From NCBI GenBank assembly GCA_028684915.1, contig JAQUEZ010000018.1:1-58984 (forward strand): a DNA stretch of 58,984 nucleotides. The letters are read 5' to 3'. Under the pieces are notes generated by a model. It made no database searches and was not told the DNA's origin. It was given only the letters and a program-made list of their open reading frames with translations. The position numbers and the translations under genes are program-made. The stretch comes from Desulfobulbus sp. Lineage in GTDB: Bacteria; Desulfobacterota; Desulfobulbia; Desulfobulbales; Desulfobulbaceae. Position 1 is the first letter of the stretch; each line of letters begins with the position of its first letter. This document shows positions 3,743-52,216 of the stretch, piece after piece.

Positions 3743-3826
3743 TGATGGCGTCGTAAAAATTTCGATCTACTGCGTCGCAGCGTTTTTCTCGACACTCGAC
3801 ATACCTGATCCCTGCCTTCGCGTCGA
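3743..3826 (-). repeat. Decayed copy A of the short dispersed element (MITE-like)
   Basis: Matches the reverse complement of the complete copy at 52009-52169 from TGATGGCGTCGTAAAAA through TTCGATCT-CTGCGTCGCAGC and CACTCGACATACCTGA to GCCTTCGCG. It then diverges, so the other terminus is lost. A short open frame running through it (3690-3893) is not credible as a gene. Confidence 0.75.
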
Positions 3827-3937
3827 GACCATCATCTCTATCCTCCCTATAACTCGTCTTTATCTGTTCTTTACACAACTGCTTTACTGTTGAGGCAAGG
3901 AAACAGAAAAAACGAAACAACCACAATGGGGGATATC

Positions 3938-19082: not shown

Positions 19083-19570
19083 TATTCCTCAATCTTACAC
19101 GTTGGTTGATGGGCTGAGGATAGTTGCGAATCATAGCTGCTTTCCGCTGCCGCGGTCCTGAGCAAAGCGTCCATATCCGGCAACAGAATGATGTCATTGC
19201 CATTAAGGATGATCCTTGGAATCAACTCCTTTGCACGTTTCGTAAAGGCCGGCGGCAATGTCGCAGTTGTCGGCTCTGTCACGCTAACCCATTGTCCCCG
19301 CCCATGAATGGGTATTGCAGTGTAACGGTCTTTGTAGTGGAGGATGAGATAGTATTTAAGCGGTTCCCGTTTCGCGTTAAACGTGTTCTCGAAAAGACCC
19401 TGGAAATCGAAGATGAGTGCCCGTTCTCCGCTCGGCAATCGCAGGTATTTTTGATCGTTGATTACCGCCGATTGATTTGGGTCGACCTTGCATGCTCCCA
19501 CGCCGGAAACCCACTCTTTATCGATGCCGATGAGTTGTCCCTTGATAGGGGCGAGAAAAAGCGAGGTCAT
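19082..19570 (-). CDS. Divergent CheW-like protein
   Basis: A 162-residue protein with a CheW-like strand pattern. It starts FLAPIKGQLIGIDKEWVSGV, has a central RLPSGERALIFDFQGLFE in place of the usual RG-rich coupling loop, and then RYTAIPIHGRGQWVSVTEP. The key GxxxxRGxxxxVxDL pattern of true CheW is largely missing. It overlaps the CheA gene by 4 bp and the following CheW by one base. It may be an accessory coupling protein or a CheW that has lost receptor contact. Assignment rests mostly on position and weak pattern. Confidence 0.6.
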   Translation of the reverse strand: MTSLFLAPIKGQLIGIDKEWVSGVGACKVDPNQSAVINDQKYLRLPSGERALIFDFQGLFENTFNAKREPLKYYLILHYKDRYTAIPIHGRGQWVSVTEPTTATLPPAFTKRAKELIPRIILNGNDIILLPDMDALLRTAAAESSYDSQLSSAHQPTCKIEE

Positions 19571-22500
19571 ATCGCCACCTCGTCATACAAGGGGGCTTGA
19601 GTGAGTCGGGTCACGGTGTCAACAAACTCCTCGTCTTTGCACGGTTTATTGAGGAACGCCTTGGCTCCGAGCTGAAAGGCTTTCTCCCGGTGCTTGTCGG
19701 ACGTCCTTGAAGTCAGCATGATCACCGGAATGGAATCTCCTCCGGCGATATTGGGTAATTTCGTTAGAAACTCAAAACCGTTCATGTTCGGCATCTCGAT
19801 GTCCAAAAGGATGCAGTCGGGTTTTTCCGTCATGGCTTCAAGTTTTCCAAAGGCGTCCTGGCCGTCTTTTGCTTCAACCGGATTCCATCCGCTTGCGGTG
19901 ACCAACCGGCTCATGACACGACGGATGGAAATGGAATCGTCGACAATGAGGATGGTTTTGGTTCGATCTTCGATGGGTTGTTGTTGGAAGAATGTCGAAT
20001 GAACAAAAGATTCTTGTTCCGCCGCCTGGATGAGATCCGGAATATCGAGAACCGGGACGATACTCCCGTCGCCCATGACAGCGGCTCCGGAAACACCGGG
20101 AACCGTTTTTAAATGGCTTCCCAGCCCCTTGACAACGATTTCCTTTTGGCCGCTTATTTGGGGAACGGAAAGGGCAATCATCCGTCCTTCGGACTTGATG
20201 GTTAGAGCCAGAGGAGCAGTGTTTCCCCCCGGTTCTTCGCTTACGCCGAGAAGGGTTGGAAGCGCATACAGATTTACCGTGGCTCCGGATATCGTGCAGA
20301 GCCCTTTTTCCGGAAAAACATCCCTGCTGTCGAGGCGTTGGATATCAAGGATGTCGTTGAGCGGAATACCGTAGGTGATCTCGCCGATCTTGACCAGAAG
20401 GGCGCGAACAATACCCAATGTCAAAGGAATTCGCAGAACGAAGGCTGTACCCTTTCCCGGAAACGTTTCAGTGATGATTGAGCCCTGGAGTTCCTTGACG
20501 CTTTCCCTAACGACATCCATGCCAACTCCCCGTCCAGAGATTTCGCTGATCGTTTTGGTGCTAAACCCCGGGTAAAAAATCAACTCGACCAGTTGCCGTT
20601 CGTCCATATGGTCGACCTTTGCGCCCAAACCGAACTTTCTGGCCTTTGCCTTGATCGCTTCAAAATCAAGGCCCTGACCATCATCGCTGAACCGCAAGAC
20701 GATATGGTTGCGTTCCCGATGCGCGCTTAACATGATGGAGGCGGTGGTGGGCTTGTTCAGAGCTAATCGCCTTTCTTTTGATTCAACACCGTGATGCACT
20801 GCGTTACGAATAAGGTGCATCAAAGGATCGGCCAACTTTTCCCAGACCGTTCGATCCAACTCGACCCGCTCTCCTTCCATGACAAGACGGACGGGTTTTC
20901 CAAGGCGCGAGGCAACGTCGCGCACGGTGCGATGCAGTCGCGATGACAACGTCGACAAGGGGCTCATCCTCGCCCGCATCATGTGTACCTGCAATTCGCG
21001 GATAACTCGGTGCTGGCGACTGATATCGCCGTTGATGCCGCTGAAGATTCCACCAAGGTTGCTGTGGATGGCTGACACATCAATGGTTGATTCATTTAAA
21101 GAGCGAATAATCAGGTTGAGCTGAGTGTACCTATCCAATTCAAGTGCATCGAATTCTGCAAAACTTTGCCCCGATTTGATCTGGGTAAAGGTCTCATTCA
21201 GATGGGTAAACCGCTCTGAAAGTCGATCTAGCGCCTTTACCTCGAATTTTGTTTCAAGCTCCAATGCGATATCTTTGAGCCGGCGTGTTGTCAGATCCAA
21301 TTCATTAAGGGCGTTGTTGAACTGTTCCATATCTTGATCGAAACCGCTGACGCCAACCAGCAATTCATTGGTCAGGTTGATCAGGGTATCCAATTGCCCC
21401 TGGTTGATACGGATGGTTTTTGCGGTTTCAGTGGCAACAGCAGGCGTTGGCGTCTGCTTCTGTTCGGGAACAAGTACTTTTTCAACCGGAATCAATGTCT
21501 CGGAAAATATCAGAGATTGATCGGCTTCCACACCCGTTTGTTCGGGTGATTCGAGGGGAAGTTGTTCCGCCTCGGGCTGAGGCTGAGGTTCTGTCTCGAT
21601 CAGGGCTTCAAGGCGTCGATGTACATCCTTAAGGCGTTCGGAGGGGATCGTCTCCGGGGCTTCAACGAGTAAACCAAGCAGGTCCAGGGCTTCGGCCAAG
21701 GTGTTGAGCATGGTCGGATCAATGAAACGAGCGCCTTCGAAAAGCCAATCGAGGCAATCCTCCACGCCATGGGCATAGCTGGCAATCTCCTGGAGACCGA
21801 TGACGGAAGAAGCGCCTTTGATCGTGTGGACAGAACGGCTGATAGTGCGGATTTCTTCCCTGTGTTCCGTTGAAATTTCGGTCGTGAAATGGATCTCGCG
21901 TTCAAGCCTCTCCATAGACTGGTGGAGCTGTTGCAGATGCTCTTTCGCCTCCTCCCGAAACCCGTCTCTGAGCATGAGCAATTCTTCATCGCTGAAGAGA
22001 TTGGTTGACGGTGATTGCACAATGGGGGCTTTGGAGTGGGGGGGGGATTGTTTGTTGGTCGCGCTTTGTGTTGCGGAAGGAGGCGTCTGTTCGGGTTTCG
22101 TCTCGATCAGGGCTTCAAGGCGTCGATGTATATCCTTGAGGCGTTCGGAGGGGATCGTCTCCGGGGCTTCAACGAGTAAACCAAGCAGGTCCAAGGCTTC
22201 GGCCAAGGTATTGAGCATGGTCGGATCAATGAAACGAGCGTCTTCAAAAAGCCAATCGAGGAAATCCTCCACACCATGGGCATAGCTAGCAATCTCCTGG
22301 AGTCCGATGACGGAGGAAGCGCCTTTGATTGTGTGGATAGAACGGCGAATAGTGCGGATTCCTTCCCGGTGTTCCGCTGAAATTTCGGTTGTGGAATGGA
22401 TCTCGCGTTCTAGGCTTTCCAGGGAAAGGTGGAACTGTTGCAGATGCTCTTCCGCCTCCTCCCGAAACCCGTCTCTGAGCATGAGCAATTCTTCATCGCT

Positions 22501-23493
22501 GAAGAGATTGGTTGACGGTGATTGCACAATGGGGGCTGTGGAAGGGGGGATGGGCTGTTTATTGATCGAGCTTTTCGCTTCGGAAGGAGGCGGCTGTGGA
22601 GTGAATTGTTGTTGATCCTGCTCAGGATCGTTCATGCAAAGGCTTAATTGTCCAAACGTATCCTCTGCAGCCTGTTCGTCAAAGGCGTCAGGTTCCATGA
22701 TGAGTTTGGCAAGAGAATCAATGGACGCCGACAGAAGGTGGATGTGCCGCGGATCAAGGGTAATGGCGGATTCGCAGAACCAGTCCATGATGTCTTCGAC
22801 CAAGTGCGCATACGCGGAAATATCGGGAAGACCGAGAACCGCTGAAGCCCCTTTCAAGGTGTGGACGGAACGGCGGATTGTATTGAGGGGCGACCGCACG
22901 GTATCATCAACCGAAGTCGGTCCGATCACGGCTATATGGAGCTTGTCGATCGCCTGTTCCAAGATAGCAAAATGCTGTTCCGACTCGGCCTGAAACTCAT
23001 TGAGTAATGAGGTTTCCAGGTCGGAAGGCGCTGGATCTGTCGCCAACAATTCCTCGGAGTCGATGAGTCCGTCCATTTCCATGGAGAACATCGCCTCGCT
23101 CTCGTCGGCACAGATATTCGCAAAGTATTGTTGCGTCTGGTCGAAGAGTTGTGCATCGTCGAGAGGGGATCCCTGTTGCAGGCCCTGGCAATACTGTTCA
23201 AAAAGAAGCGTAGTCGAGTGCATGGCGTCGAGGACTGCAGACGAGAGCGGGACACGCCTTTCCTGGATCTCGTCAAGCACGGATTCCGTGTGTCCGGCAA
23301 TCCGGCTCAACCCCTGAATGCCGACCATGGAAGAGGCACCTTTAATAATATGTACCAACCGATAGAGTTCCGTGAAACTTTCCGAATGATTCGGGTTCGT
23401 GCGCAGTTCGTCTATATGCTGATGAATGATGGGAATATAGCTCTTCACTTCTTCGAGATATCCCGCAAAAAGAGCCTTCCTGTCTTGCGCCAT
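19567..23493 (-). CDS. cheA: Hybrid CheA histidine kinase with four HPt domains and a receiver
   Basis: A 1308-residue CheA-REC hybrid. Four HPt domains carry their phosphorylatable His at residue 48 (RLVHIIKGASS), 211 (SVHTLKGASA), 387 (SIHTIKGASS) and 556 (SVHTIKGASS). These are followed by a proline/glutamine-rich linker, the dimerisation helices, the HATPase domain (HLIRNAVHHGVES, GRGVGMDVV), the CheW-like regulatory domain and a C-terminal receiver (ILIVDDSISIRR, CILLDIEMP). The layout matches ChpA/PilL/PixL-type kinases that control type IV pili or similar outputs more than flagellar CheA. HPt3 and HPt4 are near-identical and come from a tandem duplication. It is flanked by CheW genes in one operon. 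Confidence 0.93.
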   Translation of the reverse strand: MAQDRKALFAGYLEEVKSYIPIIHQHIDELRTNPNHSESFTELYRLVHIIKGASSMVGIQGLSRIAGHTESVLDEIQERRVPLSSAVLDAMHSTTLLFEQYCQGLQQGSPLDDAQLFDQTQQYFANICADESEAMFSMEMDGLIDSEELLATDPAPSDLETSLLNEFQAESEQHFAILEQAIDKLHIAVIGPTSVDDTVRSPLNTIRRSVHTLKGASAVLGLPDISAYAHLVEDIMDWFCESAITLDPRHIHLLSASIDSLAKLIMEPDAFDEQAAEDTFGQLSLCMNDPEQDQQQFTPQPPPSEAKSSINKQPIPPSTAPIVQSPSTNLFSDEELLMLRDGFREEAEEHLQQFHLSLESLEREIHSTTEISAEHREGIRTIRRSIHTIKGASSVIGLQEIASYAHGVEDFLDWLFEDARFIDPTMLNTLAEALDLLGLLVEAPETIPSERLKDIHRRLEALIETKPEQTPPSATQSATNKQSPPHSKAPIVQSPSTNLFSDEELLMLRDGFREEAKEHLQQLHQSMERLEREIHFTTEISTEHREEIRTISRSVHTIKGASSVIGLQEIASYAHGVEDCLDWLFEGARFIDPTMLNTLAEALDLLGLLVEAPETIPSERLKDVHRRLEALIETEPQPQPEAEQLPLESPEQTGVEADQSLIFSETLIPVEKVLVPEQKQTPTPAVATETAKTIRINQGQLDTLINLTNELLVGVSGFDQDMEQFNNALNELDLTTRRLKDIALELETKFEVKALDRLSERFTHLNETFTQIKSGQSFAEFDALELDRYTQLNLIIRSLNESTIDVSAIHSNLGGIFSGINGDISRQHRVIRELQVHMMRARMSPLSTLSSRLHRTVRDVASRLGKPVRLVMEGERVELDRTVWEKLADPLMHLIRNAVHHGVESKERRLALNKPTTASIMLSAHRERNHIVLRFSDDGQGLDFEAIKAKARKFGLGAKVDHMDERQLVELIFYPGFSTKTISEISGRGVGMDVVRESVKELQGSIITETFPGKGTAFVLRIPLTLGIVRALLVKIGEITYGIPLNDILDIQRLDSRDVFPEKGLCTISGATVNLYALPTLLGVSEEPGGNTAPLALTIKSEGRMIALSVPQISGQKEIVVKGLGSHLKTVPGVSGAAVMGDGSIVPVLDIPDLIQAAEQESFVHSTFFQQQPIEDRTKTILIVDDSISIRRVMSRLVTASGWNPVEAKDGQDAFGKLEAMTEKPDCILLDIEMPNMNGFEFLTKLPNIAGGDSIPVIMLTSRTSDKHREKAFQLGAKAFLNKPCKDEEFVDTVTRLTQAPLYDEVAI
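21594..22548. repeat. In-frame tandem duplication inside cheA (507-bp period)
   Basis: Two direct copies, about 21594-22041 and 22101-22548, offset by exactly 507 bp (169 codons). Long stretches are identical, such as the part encoding SPSTNLFSDEELLMLRDGF and the part encoding DLLGLLVEAPETIPSERLKD. They encode HPt3 and HPt4 plus linker. The high DNA identity, including synonymous positions, implies recent duplication or ongoing gene conversion. Confidence 0.9.
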
Positions 23494-33680: not shown

Positions 33681-33757
33681 AAAATACTGTTCCTTGTATA
33701 TCTTTGTTTTTACGTAACCATCTCTTAGCGTGTGATGGACTGTTTACGAGTCCATCA
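33681..33757 (-). repeat. Partial copy of the short dispersed element
   Basis: Begins directly after the NRAMP stop and matches the reverse complement of the 52009-52169 copy over TTCCTTGTATATCTTTG, CCATCTCTTAG and the terminal hairpin TGATGGACT...GAGTCCATCA. The other terminus is missing. The hairpin may act as the 3' end of the NRAMP transcript. Confidence 0.8.
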
Positions 33758-44892: not shown

Positions 44893-45306
44893 GCTTCCTC
44901 CACTTCCGGCAGCTGCAGTACTTCCCGGCCGGGGTTGGTCCTTTCGGGATGGAGAGCCTCTGCTGCCGGTTTGTGGTGATCCTGGCGGATTTCTGCAGGT
45001 TTGCATGCAACCAAGTTCAGGCAGAGGGGCCCTAGATAACATTCTGAAATGGAAATAAATGTTGAGTAATAGAGAATCAGGGCGCAACAGTCAACTGCTT
45101 TCTCGGACTGCAGGGAAACCGGGGCCGTGCCCTTACCCTGCATCCGGAAAATGTCCGGTCCTGGCGACAGTCTGCTTTTGTTGATGACGGGAAAGACGGA
45201 AAAAGTGTTTTTGTTTTATTTTTAGTAGGTTATTAGTGATTATCTCCTTGAAAGTTAGCAGGAAAAGTGTTCAGCTCCCTAGCCGCGTACAAGGTGGCAT
45301 TTGCCA
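44893..45306. other. cobQ leader region
   Basis: About 400 bp with no gene, expected to hold the cobQ promoter on the minus strand. It is rich in short inverted repeats (for example CCGGACATTTTCCGG at 45148-45162) and has fragments reminiscent of a cobalamin riboswitch (AGTCCGA, CCAGGACC). I could not assemble the conserved B12-box with its paired elements, so I do not call a riboswitch. Confidence 0.4.
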
Positions 45307-45311
45307 ATTAT

Positions 45312-45400
45312 GATGGCGTCGTAAAAACACTATTCCTTGTATATCTGTGTTTTTACTTAGCCATCTCTTAGAGTGTGATGGACTTTTTACGAGTCCATCA
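45312..45400 (-). repeat. Internally deleted copy B of the short dispersed element, with 5-bp flanking repeats
   Basis: 89 bp with both termini (GATGGCGTCGTAAAAA on the left, hairpin GATGGACT-TTTTACG-AGTCCATC on the right). It is flanked by ATTAT at 45307-45311 and 45401-45405. Relative to the ~161-bp copies it lacks the middle ~73 bp. The junction falls where AAAAAC occurs on both sides of the missing part. It ends 14 bp before the ribosome site of the next gene. Confidence 0.88.
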
Positions 45401-45425
45401 ATTATCTGTATATAAGGAGAACCCG

Positions 45426-46067
45426 ATGCACCCCTTTCCATCTTTCCAACACTCCCTTAGACCGATCATCCAGACCGCTGGTTTGGTCCTGATCTGTATA
45501 TCTTCTGTACAGACCGCTCTGGCTGAAGATGAAATCCGGGCTGGAGCTGTTATTCAGATTCCCTTTACTTTTGGTGGATCCTCGGGTTCACCTGTTGACT
45601 TTTCCGGTTTCCGCGTTGGGCTGACCTGTCAGTACGCCGAAGTGGAAGAGGATATAATCACCAGCACCCACCATGTGACAAATACCTATCTTGATGGATC
45701 GCTGATCGATACAACGGAAAACACCTCGATAACCGGGAAAGATGAAGGAAATCGAGCCTATGGAGTTGAAGGGAATATATTTTTTGATATTCTCGACGGT
45801 TTTACTCCCTCTGCGGAGGTGCTTGGTTTTTATGGAACCAACGAGGTACAGGGCGCTATCGGGGGCGGATATGATTTCTCCAGTGACTTCTTTCTTGATG
45901 CCAAGGTGATGTTTCCTTACTCGGAAATAGGGGTACGCTTTCCCGGTCAGGTGGAGATCTACGGTGGACTTAAAACGCTCGGAAGCTTTAACCCGAAAAA
46001 GGAGCACCGCTTAAATGAGGAGGTCACTGATACCAACACCTATACCCCCCCTCCCCCTGTGCTGTAA
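45426..46067 (+). CDS. Exported protein of unknown function, probable outer-membrane beta-barrel
   Basis: A 213-residue protein with a signal peptide (to about SVQTALAED) and then alternating strands with Gly and aromatic residues (GFRVGLTCQYAEVEED, GAIGGGYDFSSDFFLDAKVMFPYSEIGVRF, VEIYGGLKTLGSF), the look of a small outer-membrane barrel. It ends in a polar Pro-rich tail (TYTPPPPVL), so the C-terminal strand is not the classical final Phe. AAGGAGAA precedes the ATG. It is a single gene with its own strong terminator. No family recognised. Confidence 0.65.
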   Translation: MHPFPSFQHSLRPIIQTAGLVLICISSVQTALAEDEIRAGAVIQIPFTFGGSSGSPVDFSGFRVGLTCQYAEVEEDIITSTHHVTNTYLDGSLIDTTENTSITGKDEGNRAYGVEGNIFFDILDGFTPSAEVLGFYGTNEVQGAIGGGYDFSSDFFLDAKVMFPYSEIGVRFPGQVEIYGGLKTLGSFNPKKEHRLNEEVTDTNTYTPPPPVL

Positions 46068-46128: not shown

Positions 46129-46177
46129 GTCAATAAGGTCCGTTGGCTTTTACCGTTCTTGTCGTTTTCTACAACGT

Positions 46178-46339
46178 GATGGACTCAGAAAAAGTCCATC
46201 ACACTCTAAAATATGGCTCAGTAAAAACACAGATATTCAAGGAGTAGTGTTGTTTCGGCGCGAAGGCATACATCGGGTATGTCGAGTGCCCGGAAAAACG
46301 CTGTGATACGGTAGATCGAAGTTTCTACGACGACATCAT
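46178..46339 (+). repeat. Full-length copy C of the short dispersed element
   Basis: 162 bp from GATGGACTCAGAAAAAGTCCATC to CTACGACGACATCAT, flanked by AACGT at 46173-46177 and 46340-46344. It is the same orientation as the 52009 copy and aligns along its length (AACACAGATAT-CAAGGAGTAGTGTT, CGGCGCGAAGGCATAC, ATGTCGAGTGCCCGGAAAAA, GATCGAAGTTT). It lies between the terminator above and the dnaA leader. Confidence 0.9.
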
Positions 46340-46344
46340 AACGT

Positions 46345-51907: not shown

Positions 51908-52008
51908 TTTGGGACACCTTTTGGGGTGAGTACACGGCCTGAAAGCTTATCTGCAGTGTAACACGCCGGTATTTGGTGAGAGTTCTTTGGCTATCAGCGT
52001 CTAACCTT

Positions 52009-52169
52009 GATGGACTCGTAAAAAGTCCATCACACTCTAAGAGATGGCTCAGTAAAAACACAGATATACAAGGAGTAGTGTTTTTTCGGCGCGAAGGCAT
52101 ACCTCAGGTATGTCGAGTGCCCGGAAAAATGCTGCGACGCAGGAGATCGAAGTTTTTACGACGCCATCA
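52009..52169 (+). repeat. Full-length copy D of the short dispersed element
   Basis: 161 bp. Left end GATGGACTCGTAAAAA, right end TTTTTACGACGCCATCA (inverted relative to the left end with two mismatches). A subterminal hairpin GATGGACT-CGTAAAA-AGTCCATC occupies the left 23 bp. Flanked by ACCTT at 52004-52008 and 52170-52174. No coding capacity. It sits between htpG and the terminator at 52176. Confidence 0.92.
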
Positions 52170-52175
52170 ACCTTG

Positions 52176-52216
52176 AAAAAAGGTTGTGTTCACGATATAT
52201 GAACACAACCTTTTTT
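52176..52216. terminator. Bidirectional rho-independent terminator
   Basis: A 17-bp perfect stem, AAAAAAGGTTGTGTTCA and its complement, around a 7-base loop, with A-tract on one side and T-tract on the other. It can end transcription from both strands and separates htpG from the lipoprotein-pcm operon. The element D insertion lies between it and htpG. Confidence 0.93.

Follow-up and report, generated by a model that had tools for sequence, protein, structure and literature searches.

Five related short repeats lie scattered over a 58,984-nucleotide stretch of Desulfobulbus sp. DNA (hereafter the window, meaning that whole stretch), a chromosomal segment carrying dnaA, htpG, a phosphofructokinase gene, a pst gene and a tmRNA, and the question that they raise is what kind of element they represent and what has moved them. 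Alignment of one copy (E) to the window bore out the five places proposed for the family in the original prediction: E itself at 52009..52168 and D at 46178..46337 on the forward strand, and C at 45312..45399, B at 33681..33756 and A at 3744..3826 on the reverse strand. E is 90% identical to D over 161 nt and 95% to C over 84; identities to the partial copies are 87% over 84 nt for A and 88% over 76 for B. The density of one copy per 12 kb given for the family holds for the window, and in 100 shuffles of its sequence the number of end matches observed there was never reached. Both ends are present in three of the five copies (E, D and C), the element boundaries GATGG...CCATC enclosing 160 bp in E and D and 88 bp in C, and E is delimited both by its sequence and by the empty site in relatives described below. 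Copy C looks like an E-like copy that has lost 72 bp by an internal deletion at a GTTTTT run. The partial copies keep one clear end each: the truncated B, recognised by alignment and end match, has the hairpin end, and the decayed A, recognised by alignment, the non-hairpin end, while the CCATC at 3829-3833 may be the outer end of A, with no clear duplication beside it.

All five copies sit between recognised genes of the window and were correctly described as having no coding capacity, being too short for a transposase gene. A mechanically called ORF (45375-46067) begins within copy C and extends into the next gene; its genuine start is probably the ATG at 45426, preceded by AAGGAG, which would place C directly before its ribosome-binding site. 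The following ATG lies 36 bases from B, 26 from C and 80 from E. Elsewhere in the window, a 300-nt direct repeat (21587-21886 and 22094-22393, 93% identical) was noted inside a 1308-aa ORF (19567-23493, minus strand).

The inverted ends claimed for the element are indeed there (GATGGACTCGTAAAAAG against GATGGCGTCGTAAAAAC) and the hairpin at one of them is real, with a fold z-score of -5.35 as DNA and -8.27 as RNA. In E this terminal 23-nt hairpin, GATGGACTCGTAAAAAGTCCATC, occupies 52009..52031 on the forward strand, as defined by fold prediction and end comparison, and its first 18 nt agree at every position with the 3' end of a remnant IS in Desulfogranum marinum (genome G001). An inner end-like sequence, GATGGCTCAGTAAAAAC, begins 34 nt into E (52043..52059, forward strand) and in the predicted fold pairs with the right terminus to form a second stem; that terminus, GATGGCGTCGTAAAAAC read inward, was placed by end comparison at 52152..52168 on the reverse strand. 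Rfam, at gathering thresholds, returned the tmRNA and no other match. Just to the right of E lies a perfect palindrome (52176-52216, AAAAAAGGTTGTGTTCA-cgatata-TGAACACAACCTTTTTT), whose left arm is found at 12 of 12 loci of relatives and both of whose arms are exact in seven of these 12; it is perhaps a terminator, or a site for a regulator, ahead of a small lipoprotein-like gene.

Perfect 5-bp direct repeats (ATTAT, AACGT and ACCTT) had been proposed to flank the three complete copies; these letters do stand there, but the duplication is longer than they suggest, at 6-7 bp. E lies between two exact 6-bp copies of AACCTT (52003..52008 and 52169..52174), C between two exact 6-bp copies of AATTAT (45306..45311 and 45400..45405), and D between ACAACGT (46171..46177) and ATAACGT (46338..46344), 7 bp with one mismatch of which the inner 5 bp, AACGT, are exact. 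For random 88- or 160-bp stretches of the window, the chance of an exact 6-bp flanking repeat is 0.0003. The flanks of other genomic copies, suggested beforehand as a check, likewise confirmed duplications, mostly of 6-7 bp and not of 5: beyond the window, 334 end pairs of MITE size included 69 with exact flanks of 6 bp and 10 with exact flanks of 7 bp, as against 0.96 and 0.13 expected from shuffled flanks. The remaining pairs showed 5 bp (six) or no duplication (249), and many of the latter are probably false pairings of ends. With A at base 1 and T at base 6 in nearly every case, duplications of 4, 5 and 6 bp look alike. Where an outer base departs from this pattern, the duplication still includes it at L092, L111, L119 and L128 (L128 and L061 being one site) and, in L116, at position 6; sites at odds with 6 bp are L010, L017, L029, L103 and position 1 of L116, and these are cases of 5 bp, of mutation or of false pairing. 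Our reading of 6 bp as the rule is based on the IS described below, which shows 6 and 7 bp, and not on agreement of every site.

Empty sites, a further check put forward with the prediction, were found for copy E. Relatives were ranked by htpG, for which 193 genomes were searched and 183 matched, the closest of the 193 being G160 with 85% DNA identity, and the best 12 loci were fetched. The site of E is uninterrupted at 12 of these 12 loci (the best 12 of the 183 matching genomes), and at each of them the right junction of E, CTTGAAAAAAGGTTGTG, continues leftwards without the element, as exemplified by G160 (GTCTGACCTTGAAAAAAGG). Thus, either E inserted in the lineage of the window or it was cleanly lost in all 12 relatives, which is the less simple account. 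The base-exact empty site was obtained for E alone; the stretches around C, D and B were too diverged to align well enough with G160, and copy A had no match within the G160 stretch compared. An nhmmer search of 17 stretches from relatives, among them 60 kb of G160 with most of the gene order of the window, revealed no MITE of the window's type and recovered its positive controls, the window and L123.

Ends and hairpins of this kind extend well beyond the window. The exact 23-nt hairpin occurs in at least 119 stretches of GTDB contigs and, at two mismatches or fewer, in 27 of the 146 genomes of the order of G001 (control, 0), whereas ends of the form GATGGNNTCGTAAAAAG, at one mismatch or fewer, occur in 125 of the 146 genomes, with ten or more ends in 57, adding up to 2,721, compared with about 32 when the reversed control was used. 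Copy E matches all 23 genomes selected by the hairpin, as the selection dictates; the match has an E-value below 1e-10 in eight of them and in the other 15 is little longer than the hairpin. The interiors of the MITEs differ among genomes, in a sample biased by the exact-hairpin selection. A different interior (AACAGGCCGAGGGCGG... or similar) with the same 23-nt hairpin end was observed at L004, L021, L027, L031 and others, in MAGs labelled Deltaproteobacteria or Desulfobacteraceae. Copy E gave no match to phages and plasmids at an E-value of 1e-5 or below, and the exact hairpin none in IMG/VR. In the literature searched (titles and abstracts of the matches listed, with few subscription journals) there was no family name describing these repeats, and the papers retrieved with the end strings were unrelated by title and abstract.

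The proposed search for a full IS with matching ends met with success in G160, G133 and G022, with truncated or remnant copies in G001 and G002. The route to this IS was a search for PF01609 (DDE_Tnp_1) in 10 genomes, giving 33 matches, 30 of them with loci, a single one of which (L180, a truncated IS copy in G002) had an end at three mismatches or fewer. The protein piece encoded at L180 has homologues in five of 47 genomes: 19 matches in G160, seven in G133 and one each in G022, G001 (a remnant) and G002 (L180 itself). The IS is 1,867-1,893 bp long, about 1.89 kb, with ends such as GATGGCGTCGTAAAAAGT (5') and GATGACCTCGTAAAAAGTC (3') in G160. Both ends are present in 25 copies (17 in G160, seven in G133, one in G022), a count that leaves out 18 other IS-size end pairs judged to be chance pairings, and the 25 carry exact duplications of 6 bp (17 copies) or 7 bp (six), a 6-bp duplication with one mismatch (L217) or none (L213). 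The 12 of the 17 G160 copies that were compared are at least 99.58% identical, 23 of the 66 pairs being fully so, and this near-identity points to recent activity. G160 also harbours a second type of MITE, about 100 bp long and exactly 6 bp from the IS, at L219 (1263-3369) and at L224, L227 and L228. When ends were paired within the window and the 119 pattern loci, no full IS emerged, just one 397-bp pair, and inspection by eye of the ends in seven genomes (for G014, among the matches listed) showed no IS-size pair; the IS of G133 was missed by that end listing, its 3' ends lying outside the pattern.

The IS codes for a 584-aa DDE-type transposase in which DUF772 and DDE_Tnp_1_6 exceed the Pfam cut-off in three of three full-length proteins (the fourth, a fragment, has DDE_Tnp_1_6 only) and which carries DDE_Tnp_1 also. 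These domains, a related transposase and inverted-repeat ends are shared with the IS1182 family (NCBIfam NF033551, including IS1272). The full-length proteins reach 158.7, 144.1 and 182.5 bits against this profile (a range of 144-183) and the fragment 105.2, all below the curated cut-off of 270, so the transposase is termed here IS1182-related and not a family member. Its relatives at an E-value of 1e-20 or below number 4,126 among 7,999 scored. Residues D157, D362 and E487 are conserved in 35 of 35 transposases, as are D287 and D294, and from their place in a structure model (mean pLDDT 70.8) the first three would form the DDE triad. The best PDB structure matches of the model are retroviral integrase cores, with E-values of about 0.1 or worse and probabilities up to 0.96, a likeness that is supportive only; the fold search gave no match at an E-value of 0.001 or below, and no sequence relative of the transposase was found in the PDB at 0.1 or below.

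The sequence likeness of the IS to the MITEs is confined to about the outer 18 nt, where a MITE end matches an IS end at best in 17-18 of 18 positions. The non-hairpin terminus of E shares 17 of its first 18 nt with the 5' end of the G160 IS, while the hairpin end, set against the G160 IS alone, agrees in 16 of 18 with the 5' end and in 16 of 18 with the 3' end; because it fits both equally, the descent of each MITE end from one IS end is only suggested by the comparison. The MITE target is A-N4-T, with T-C as its commonest neighbour before and G-A after, and the preference of the IS equals it: an A in first and a T in sixth position were found in 97% of 71 MITE sites and 100% of 21 IS-size sites, in frequencies that were symmetrised over sites selected for an exact 6-bp repeat, with four of the 21 IS-size sites spanning nested IS/MITE arrays. 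Without symmetrisation, C stands before the target in 52 of 99 sites and G after it in 42 of 99. We consider it highly probable that the five copies are gene-less MITEs that owe their movement in trans to the DDE-type transposase encoded by this IS1182-related, about 1.89-kb IS. The transposase would bind the approximately 18-nt ends of a MITE or of the IS and join them to the target with a 6- or 7-bp stagger, in the usual staggered-cut DDE chemistry. Like the MITEs, the IS, whose GATGGNNTCGTAAAAAGT ends are of the same kind, inserts at A-N4-T or A-N5-T, usually within TCA...TGA, and duplicates 6 or 7 bp. The original idea of a non-autonomous transposon moved in trans thus gains support from the dispersed duplicated copies, the empty site of E and the matching IS. 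Whereas the ends, the duplications, that empty site, the shared target preference and the IS in relatives are direct observations, we infer that this transposase, or a close homologue present now or once in the genome of the window, moved the copies in the window.

The distribution of the transposase is where an alternative finds its footing, namely that one or several different transposases, unrelated to the IS1182-type one, moved the MITEs by using similar ends. Genomes with a transposase match (eight of 146) do contain more ends than the others (medians 32.5 and 5.5, Mann-Whitney p 0.003, kinship uncorrected), the eight including G137 with a short remnant, G148 with a distant relative that has no such ends, and G001 with remnants. 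Nonetheless, a profile of 35 transposase sequences found no homologue at an E-value of 1e-6 or below in 16 of 17 MITE-rich genomes and, in the remaining one, a truncated copy at a contig end; DDE_Tnp_1 had no match in G126 and one weak match in G007, and PF13751 matched in four of 12 genomes, at eight loci without an end at three mismatches or fewer. Therefore, most MITE-rich genomes examined show no driver in their assemblies. Six of the 17 are MAGs and others are multi-contig where their place is shown, but to appeal to such assemblies for the loss of a multi-copy IS would be an excuse and not a test. Against a different transposase stand the IS itself, which combines matching ends with the A-N4/5-T target and the 6-7 bp duplication of the MITEs, and the outcome for other candidates: among the 30 DDE_Tnp_1 loci only L180, of the same IS type, and among eight further DDE_Tnp_1_6 loci not one, had an end at three mismatches or fewer, and the more distant DDE_Tnp_1_6 transposases at the G148 loci were likewise without ends at that threshold. 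On balance we regard this alternative as improbable.

Less probable still, and by a small degree, is that the 23-bp hairpin itself is what moves, the larger MITEs being composites that arose when it inserted beside older elements. It would account for the 23-bp hairpin of L095 (4676, reverse strand), which stands bare between two ATGTAT repeats in a Desulfocapsa sp. MC-05 MAG, and for the inner end-like sequence that, 34 nt into E, pairs with the right end in the fold; the bare hairpin is equally explained, however, by deletion between two CCATC repeats, and when mobility of the hairpin was tested the signal was weak, flanks agreeing at five or six of six positions in three of 119 hairpins against 0.69 by chance, with 25 of 1000 shuffles reaching three, in a sample biased by the exact-match hairpin search. 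That the copies are structured repeats passed on by vertical descent (regulatory RNA, or palindromes like REP/BIME) and that their flanking duplications arose by chance, as their strong predicted folds and the ATGs 36, 26 and 80 bases beyond B, C and E might suggest, is very unlikely and already contradicted by the empty site and the duplications, with exact 6-bp flanks at both E and C (a chance of 0.0003 each), 12 of 12 relatives' loci lacking E, dozens of flanked copies in other genomes and the tmRNA as the sole Rfam match at gathering thresholds.

Bacterial MITEs are short, non-coding and IS-driven, with inverted ends, target duplications and many copies, general features that the window copies have in common with Correia elements and MITEAba12. 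The copies of the window are short and lack a transposase gene, have inverted ends and duplications, and are accompanied by the empty site of E and an autonomous element in relatives; beyond the window, exact 6-7 bp duplications flank 79 of 334 end pairs as opposed to about one after shuffling. Other bacterial MITEs such as the Correia elements have different ends and a different target, and unlike bacterial MITEs in general the present ones have a perfect hairpin at one end and an inner end-like repeat that makes a second stem. REP elements moved by RAYT are similar in being short intergenic palindromes with many copies but are not known to cause a target duplication, whereas 6-7 bp are duplicated here, and we rejected this assignment; so too for the Tn3-derived TIME, which have GGGG ends and a 5-bp duplication, against ends of GATGG and duplications mostly of 6-7 bp in our case. 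The ISDol1 group of ISNCY, named after a Desulfococcus IS, has 6-7 bp duplications and would in that respect fit the present IS; the passage of PMC8147514 that names ISDol1 gives neither its ends nor its duplications. According to a passage of PMC5678879, some members of the IS1182 family are said to target palindromes, and IS1272, named as an element of that family, is reported to replace a stem-loop without leaving a duplication, in contrast to the 6-7 bp duplicated by the IS and MITEs described here.

The fullest form of the target, TCA-N4-TGA, corresponds to the element's own ends set 6 bp apart (CCATC-A-N4-T-GATGG), and ends exactly 6 bp apart were found at four of six G160 loci (L219, L224, L227 and L228, but not L225 and L207). 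Because of this likeness to the preferred target, a copy's adjoining duplication would itself be a favoured site. It is tempting to speculate, though we hold it rather doubtful, that the element favours the duplications beside its existing copies and so grows 6-bp-spaced arrays, in which case this IS1182-related group would target sites adjacent to itself and duplicate them, where IS1272 is reported to replace a stem-loop. Among related transposases, a 6-7 bp target that is duplicated and a stem-loop that is replaced offer a testable contrast.

Taken as a whole, the repeats constitute a real and new MITE family with a likely autonomous partner, of a known kind and largely ordinary mobile DNA. 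The many MITEs in genomes where no transposase turned up pose the question whether the driver was lost or dropped in assembly. Widespread small repeats of Desulfobulbales-like bacteria are linked here to a specific transposase and a target preference, which makes intergenic repeats, represented by 2,721 end matches in 146 genomes, annotatable.
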